Below are positions 34,860 through 36,174 of a DNA stretch of 36,174 nucleotides, piece after piece. The notes beneath the pieces were generated by a model that saw only the letters and a program-made list of their open reading frames with translations, did no database searches and was not told the DNA's origin. A program made the position numbers and the translations under genes. The DNA is from an uncultured Alphaproteobacteria bacterium (GTDB taxonomy: Bacteria > Pseudomonadota > Alphaproteobacteria > Micropepsales > Micropepsaceae): positions 1-36,174 of the forward strand of contig CAIYRG010000367.1 in assembly GCA_903928515.1 (NCBI GenBank). Direction: 5' to 3'. Each line of letters opens with the position of its first letter. Positions within the stretch are counted from its first letter, which is position 1.

Positions 34860-35390
34860 ATGCCGTTCGTTCTCTCACTGGCGGCATCCCTCCTCGGCTG
34901 GGGGCGCACGGTCTTCGCATGGCTCGCAAAGCTGCCGTGGTACGTTCTGGCGCTCGCTGCGTGCGTTGGCGTGATCCTGTGGCAACATGGTGCGGAAACG
35001 CGCAAGGATGCCCGCATAGCCTCCCTGAGCGCTACACTGGACCAAGTGAAGGTTGCTCAGGCTCAGGCTCAGGTTGCAGCTCAGGTGGCGCATGATGCAC
35101 AGGAAGCGGCTTATCGGGCCAAAGCGCAGACAGGACAACAGGACCATGACCAAAAGCTTGCTGCGGCTCAGTCCGCTGTTGATGATCTGCGCGACAGGTT
35201 GCGCGCCCAAACCATTGCTAGTCGCGCCCTTGCAGCCTCTCCCGGCGCCCAAGGTGGCAATCCCGACATTCCTGCAACAGTGCCCGCCGATAGCCAGCTT
35301 TCTCTCTCAGAAGCTGACGTGCGGGCCTGTGCCAGTGCAACAGCCTATGCCGTAGGCGCGCATGATTGGGCGTTGGAGTTGGGGAAGTGA
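34860..35390 (+). CDS. Rz-like inner-membrane spanin
   Basis: N-terminal TM (LPWYVLALAACVGVILWQHG) followed by long coiled coil; lysis cassette position. Confidence 0.75.
   Translation: MPFVLSLAASLLGWGRTVFAWLAKLPWYVLALAACVGVILWQHGAETRKDARIASLSATLDQVKVAQAQAQVAAQVAHDAQEAAYRAKAQTGQQDHDQKLAAAQSAVDDLRDRLRAQTIASRALAASPGAQGGNPDIPATVPADSQLSLSEADVRACASATAYAVGAHDWALELGK
35146..35355 (+). CDS. Rz1-like outer-membrane lipoprotein spanin, embedded in Rz in another frame
   Basis: MTKSLLRLSPLLMICATGCAPKPLLVAPLQPLPAPKVAIP: signal, lipobox ATGC and Pro-rich mature part. Confidence 0.8.
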   Translation: MTKSLLRLSPLLMICATGCAPKPLLVAPLQPLPAPKVAIPTFLQQCPPIASFLSQKLTCGPVPVQQPMP

Positions 35391-35391
35391 T

Positions 35392-35485
35392 GCTGCGGCG
35401 GCTCTAGGTCGCCATGCATGGAATCGAACCATGTGTGCCCGGTCTCCGGTCGCGTATCCATCCGCCCCATGACTACCGCCGCAGC
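35392..35485 (-). ncRNA. tRNA-like structured element
   Basis: Minus strand: T-arm CATGG-TTCGATT-CCATG directly abutting a 10-bp stem GGTAGTCATG/CATGGCGACC (one mismatch, one GU) and an outer perfect stem GCTGCGGCGG/CCGCCGCAGC. Confidence 0.55.
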
Positions 35486-35516: not shown

Positions 35517-35702
35517 TCAATGGGCCGGGCGCGCAGTGCATGTCCAAGACGTGCTGTGATAAACTTCGACATCAAATGCTTTGCCGCAATGGTCGCATTC
35601 ATGTTCGGTCAAATCTTCGTCGTAGAAGAATCCGCCGTCATGCGTTTGCTTGCGTTGGCAATAGGGGCATTCCGGCGCGTCAGTATTGAATGTGTATGCC
35701 AT
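35517..35702 (-). CDS. Small zinc-ribbon protein (CPYCQRK...CDHCGKAF)
   Basis: Two CxxC knuckles; MAYTFNTDAPECPYCQRKQTHDGGFFYDEDLTEHECDHCGKAFDVEVY. Confidence 0.75.
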   Translation of the reverse strand: MAYTFNTDAPECPYCQRKQTHDGGFFYDEDLTEHECDHCGKAFDVEVYHSTSWTCTARPAH

Positions 35703-35795: not shown

Positions 35796-36174
35796 TCACG
35801 CCCTTCCGCTCGCAACCAAGCCACCACCCGGGGTGGATTCCTTGCCAGCCGTTTCATACACGGCGAAGGCACCGAGGTTCACCGGGCCAATCGTGCCCTG
35901 ATAGCGCAGGCCAGCCGCGACCTGGTTCAACCAGCGAGTCCCGTCGACGCCGGTGGAGAGGTTGTTACAGCCGCCGGAGGCCACCAGGCAGGGCTGAGCC
36001 TGCAAAGCCGTGCTACCCGTCGAGTTGGAGTAGGAGTTGCCCATGGACGGGGCATACTGCACACCGAAGTCGAAGCCGAAGAACTGCGGCGACAGGTAGA
36101 CGATCTTGCTGTTGGAGTATTCCGCGCCGGCCTGCGACAACCACGCGAACGGGATGGCAACACCAGCTTGAACC
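35796..36174 (-). pseudogene. Partial bacterial outer-membrane porin; open through the right window edge and ending early after LGAFAVYETAGKESTPGGGLVASGRA
   Basis: SKIVYLSPQFFGFDFGVQYAPSMGNSYSNSTG...GTRWLNQVAAGLRYQGTIGPVNLGAFAVYETAGKE, porin-like beta-barrel strands; stop at 35796 seems premature. Confidence 0.65.

Follow-up and report, generated by a model that had tools for sequence, protein, structure and literature searches.

What is the compact, tRNA-like structure that lies between a lysis gene and a small zinc-ribbon gene near the end of an alphaproteobacterial prophage? The window analyzed here is 36,174 nt long and is the whole of contig C367 from a 524-contig metagenome-assembled genome; the contig may be misbinned (genome contamination 5.4%). 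It carries a P22-type podovirus with a P22 portal (Pfam, E 2e-161), a terminase, an endolysin and an Rz-like spanin. The element occupies positions 35392–35485 of the minus strand, near the right end of this prophage; the lysis genes are on the other strand. To its left is the gene for the Rz-like inner-membrane spanin (34860–35390, plus strand; PHROG 2466/312, E 5e-5 and 2e-4), in which an Rz1-like lipoprotein frame is nested (MTKSLLRLSPLLMICATGC..., 35146–35355, plus strand; taken from the ORF list, with a lipobox-like LLMICATGC read by eye). To its right, the gene for a 61-aa zinc-ribbon protein (35517–35702, minus strand; phage family phrog_17221, E 1e-4) lies upstream, its stop codon being 31 nt from the element.

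The original prediction gave the sequence and coordinates of the element correctly, and the T-arm, the outer 10-bp stem and the CCGG-AGA-CCGG hairpin lie where it put them. Folded alone, the 71-nt core (35474–35404, minus strand, as for all parts below) adopts a tRNA cloverleaf as minimum free energy and centroid structure alike. From 5′ to 3′ it consists of an acceptor with 6 of 7 pairs, 2 nt, a D-arm of 3 bp with GG in its 8-nt loop, 2 nt, a stunted arm of 4 bp with a 3-nt loop, a 5-nt variable loop and a canonical T-arm of 5 bp that continues directly into the 3′ strand of the acceptor. The acceptor strands are AGTCATG (positions 1–7; 35468–35474) and CATGGCG (positions 66–72; 35410–35416), with an A-G mismatch at 1-72 and a U-G pair at 3-70 that, as claimed, is valid on the minus strand only. 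In this place the original prediction had a 10-bp helix, GGTAGTCATG/CATGGCGACC. This helix contains the A-G mismatch, and since its two outer G-C pairs and the outer stem compete for the same GG, the part compatible with the outer stem is 6 continuous base pairs plus the mismatch.

The T-arm, CATGG-TTCGATT-CCATG (35417–35433), is the sole strict T-arm on either strand of the window and is preceded by the variable loop GCACA (35434–35438). The middle arm CCGG-AGA-CCGG (35439–35449) has no 7-nt anticodon loop, no U33 and no anticodon, which agrees with the earlier statement that no normal anticodon arm can be drawn. That statement overlooked the D-arm-like hairpin GCG-GATGGATA-CGC (35452–35465, GG in the loop), which completes the element as a full cloverleaf. 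Where the discriminator and CCA belong the sequence reads ACCT (35406–35409; UCCA in tRNA-Cys). Around the cloverleaf, GCTGCGGCGG (35476–35485) and CCGCCGCAGC (35392–35401) pair perfectly over 10 bp, placing it inside a leader/trailer stem.

The cloverleaf is real. In 4000 Markov shuffles of the whole window, strict T-arms turned up at a rate of 0.11 per window, which makes a T-arm on its own nothing unusual; one shuffle had a T-arm inside a 10-bp Watson-Crick stem, and none combined a T-arm with a cloverleaf. Applied to 1.67 Mb of retrieved real DNA, the cloverleaf descriptor matched at 361 sites; these were essentially all genuine tRNAs, and about one was plainly a false match. The shuffle and descriptor odds are optimistic because the descriptor was composed after the element had been seen. 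Folding energy is ordinary, with 46 of 6014 windows equally stable after GC correction (top 1%) and folding z-scores of -0.5 for the core and -2.9 for the whole element. The outer stem taken alone is weak evidence, because perfect inverted repeats of 10 bp (spacer up to 100) occur 7 times in the window, and we treat it as suggestive.

These inverted repeats and the top 1% stability bear on the possibility that the element is an intergenic hairpin unrelated to tRNA, a transcription stop or inverted repeat that looks like a tRNA by chance. Convergent genes such as the two that flank it often terminate in hairpins. The hairpin is not followed by the T-run of an intrinsic terminator, however, and neither the joint cloverleaf odds (0 of 4000) nor the specific resemblance to tRNA-Cys described below is expected of a chance structure, which we consider improbable.

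Two checks proposed with the original prediction, ARAGORN and Rfam, leave the element uncalled. ARAGORN reports no tRNA or tmRNA on it, Rfam gave no match at the gathering score and none at E<=10 over 301 nt, and the element is not among the 39 matches of the tRNA model RF00005 in its own genome. We then compared it with the 36 distinct tRNAs of the host. The best is tRNA-Cys(GCA), with a score of 65, and all others score 48.5 or less. With the T-arm fixed, a score of 65 against any host tRNA was reached by 6 sequences in a set of 2000 shuffles and by 23 in a set of 2000 random cloverleaves (p ~0.003–0.012 after correction). For the 5′ half by itself the resemblance to tRNA-Cys lacks significance, as 33 of 300 shuffles reach its best score; the isotype is therefore probable rather than proven. 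A covariance model made from the single element was run on 482 genomes, namely 96 of the same order, which all belong to one family, and 386 of the class. Besides the element itself, its only true tRNA matches were tRNA-Cys genes in three genomes (G018, G150 and G315; 27–43 bits; isotypes set by ARAGORN). A Leu-type reading, in which the middle hairpin is a long variable arm, was rejected: 5 nt lie between hairpin and T-arm, and the tRNA-Leu score is far lower. Elsewhere in the same genome, contig C106 carries a tRNA gene (L121:818-921; RF00005, 51.7 bits) that exceeds the proper length by ~30 nt, with an insert within its anticodon arm, and that ARAGORN interprets as tRNA-SeC carrying a 31-nt intron.

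The closest known system is the genome's own tRNA-Cys(GCA), of alphaproteobacterial type (contig C470, L150:467-540). The two share the order and, except for the middle arm, the lengths of the arms, the D-arm GCGGA.TGG..ACGC (GCG-GAGTGGTGA-CGC in tRNA-Cys), the variable loop GCAC and the T-loop. They differ at about one third of positions. The middle arm is 4 bp + 3 nt in the element and 5 bp + 7 nt in tRNA-Cys; the alignment leaves the element without the anticodon loop (~6 nt), one D-loop residue and CCA, position 8 is G instead of U, position 73 is A instead of U, and 1-72 is unpaired. Counted pair by pair, with pair counts that agree, 9 of 30 stem positions in the acceptor, D- and T-arms have changed, while 14 of 15 pairs are retained and three (6-67, 50-64 and 51-63) show double compensation. 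Random placing of 9 substitutions retains pairing this well with P ~5e-4, a figure inflated because the element was selected for structure. Descent from a tRNA appears likely and tRNA-Cys is the probable isotype of the ancestor. The original prediction that this is not a standard tRNA, and is either a mimic or a degenerate tRNA, is borne out: the tRNA topology is complete, the anticodon is gone and tRNA-Cys is nearest.

Charging with cysteine requires U73 and the GCA anticodon, the identity elements of CysRS. Because both are lost, an RNA made from the element should neither decode nor be charged by CysRS. We favor, with a probability of about 0.5, the reading that the element is a degenerate phage-borne tRNA gene, most likely tRNA-Cys, that diverged while functional and was later killed by deletion. 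For a time, selection for base pairing would have acted on the gene as it diverged, its stems being kept by compensatory changes relative to tRNA-Cys; some 6 nt of the anticodon loop would then have been lost together with U8, the D-loop residue, the 1-72 pair, U73 and CCA, an order of events that we infer. Decay is favored because core residues (U8, D-loop) are lost and no relative was found, and comparable decayed tRNAs are present in the fetched viral contigs. Against it, the intact stems and perfect outer stem are more orderly than a long-dead pseudogene would show.

The search for relatives covered the element's own genome, 95 family and 385 class genomes, phages, plasmids and viral contigs, and none of these contained a conserved relative. 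We found no DNA homolog in the own genome, relatives, phages or plasmids, and no second copy or intermediate form; covariation of the stems is seen against tRNA-Cys only. Nor do relatives of the zinc-ribbon protein, the spanin, the endolysin, a 116-aa late protein or the portal come with the element; those of the portal, with identities of up to 86%, sit on short contigs that lack the lysis end. A strict pattern of D-arm plus T-arm had 0 matches in the viral contigs. Three candidates were rejected. Two matches of the element model lie inside coding sequence, one at an endolysin C-terminus (L158) and one antisense of fabF (L230, from genome G436), and the hairpin CATGGAATCGAACCATG is a repeated gene context, unrelated to the element, at methyltransferase starts in many viral contigs. 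This 17-mer resembles a T-arm when read from the other strand, and the start codon that it overlaps belongs to a phage DNA-methyltransferase-like gene (e.g., L019, L025, L026, L076 and L087).

The same intact stems and enclosing stem favor another explanation, namely a repurposed tRNA mimic: a tRNA-Cys-like RNA lacking the anticodon would be retained by the phage, either to bind the host's tRNA-handling enzymes or to guard and process the zinc-ribbon transcript at its 3′ end. Its partners might be RNase P, the CCA-adding enzyme, T-loop modifying enzymes, EF-Tu or tRNA-targeting defence. Every decoding feature is gone and yet all stems are intact, a perfect 10-bp clamp surrounds the cloverleaf (a T-arm with such a stem being the 1-in-4000 case above), the U-G pair is supported on the minus strand alone, and viral contigs that have no other tRNA can carry a lone tRNA-like element lacking an anticodon, as does L222, where the middle arm is 4-bp/3-nt. 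The compensatory changes fit decay and a retained tRNA body alike, and they may be older than the deletion. With no conserved relative in the genomes and contigs searched, with U8 and the D-loop residue, both needed for the tRNA core, lost, and with no promoter- or terminator-like site found near the element, we hold a retained mimic to be possible but on the unlikely side. In its broadest form, this explanation would make the element a temperate-phage tRNA-Cys mimic without an anticodon, clamped by its own leader/trailer stem and selected to interact with host tRNA enzymes or with tRNA-targeting defence, or to act in 3′-end processing of a small phage mRNA; the lone viral-contig elements would be of the same kind. 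We consider this form unlikely.

The only plausible transcript of the element would be leftward read-through from the zinc-ribbon gene. Were it transcribed from the right in this way, the RNA would fold to a tRNA-shaped body held in the leader/trailer stem, and under the decay reading it might serve at most as a structured 3′ end or as a substrate of RNase P or other enzymes that recognize the stacked T-arm and acceptor. The earlier suggestion of a structured 3′ end for the zinc-ribbon transcript fits in strand and position, but gains no positive support, given that no promoter- or terminator-like site was seen.

The location near a prophage end raises a further origin, a remnant of an attachment site, in which an element inserted into tRNA-Cys, either at present or in an earlier host, would have left the tRNA-Cys fragment at its far end. 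Alphaproteobacterial phages use tRNA-Cys(GCA) as attB (PMC6536676), and low-scoring second copies of tRNA-Cys that flank islands are known elsewhere (PMC9897764). Such remnants are likewise tRNA-like, low-scoring and near the end of a mobile element, and one published case is tRNA-Cys-GCA; they keep, however, a near-identical 3′ half of the intact neighboring gene, whereas here both halves are present inside the phage, diverged and compensated, with no long identical core. The prophage border also lies elsewhere. A host porin fragment at the contig end (35796–36173, minus strand; Porin_4, homologs L232/L233) marks it: porin homologs are ~500 aa long and extend ~165 aa beyond where the porin of the window stops, which puts the phage/host border near 35796–35857, 310–370 bp to the right of the element. 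The cut porin may mean that the prophage integrated in the porin gene, or that the contig is chimeric. Because the host tRNA-Cys is intact elsewhere, with chromosomal flanks, and the border is 310–370 bp away, the element is not an active attachment site, contrary to one of the options first proposed, and we regard the remnant explanation as improbable too. Since published remnants include tRNA-Cys and alphaproteobacterial phages do use this gene, it is conceivable that the element arose by this route in the distant past.

A long basal stem that closes a tRNA-like module also recalls bacterial Y RNAs, in which a long end stem is likewise combined with a tRNA-like module (PMC8394870), and a phage YrlA-like RNA would join a Ro/Rsr-binding stem to a tRNA-like domain. 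The arms of YrlA follow a circularly permuted tRNA order (PMC11472068), the T-arm preceding the acceptor hairpin and D-arm. The element keeps the tRNA order, and the Y RNA reading is refuted by this lack of permutation, leaving it a very slight chance. No TROVE domain was matched among the part of the window proteins that was scanned with Pfam. The tRNA-like domain of tmRNA resembles the element in combining acceptor and T-arm without an anticodon arm; the element differs in having a middle hairpin, in its length of just ~94 nt and in the absence of an ARAGORN tmRNA call.

Anticodon-less tRNA bodies are invisible to the tRNA finder used because it reports only tRNAs with a recognizable anticodon arm. 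Searching for the T-arm itself brought out several such elements in viral contigs. Those kept by selection, if any, would be phage tRNA mimics of a new group; otherwise the elements would record how phages lose captured tRNA genes. Titles and abstracts of the open literature on tRNA mimicry, truncated tRNAs and phage tRNA-like elements, whose coverage is incomplete, held no description of anticodon-less phage tRNA elements. Among the viral contigs, L222:4491-4561 (plus strand) is a lone cloverleaf whose middle arm has 4 bp + 3 nt, and L223:4335-4277 (minus strand) has an acceptor, one long hairpin and a T-arm; neither has an ARAGORN call or another tRNA on the fetched stretch. A repeated unit occurs in large phages (L032:4060; L117:702 and 1004, on one 114-kb contig; L102:958, minus strand) and consists of a GGTTTC..GAAACC hairpin, CTGTTCTGGTGA, ~6 nt, a T-arm and ATACAGG, with no anticodon arm or ARAGORN call. 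Contigs L002 and L050 have a related-looking TCTGGTGA plus T-arm within CCACAG/CTGTGG. Phage elements of acceptor plus T-arm whose anticodon arm is short or missing are found at L045:7036, L067:5116 and L094:1289 (all minus strand) and at L047:5182 (plus strand), and the one in L094 is a nearly bare acceptor/T-arm minihelix.
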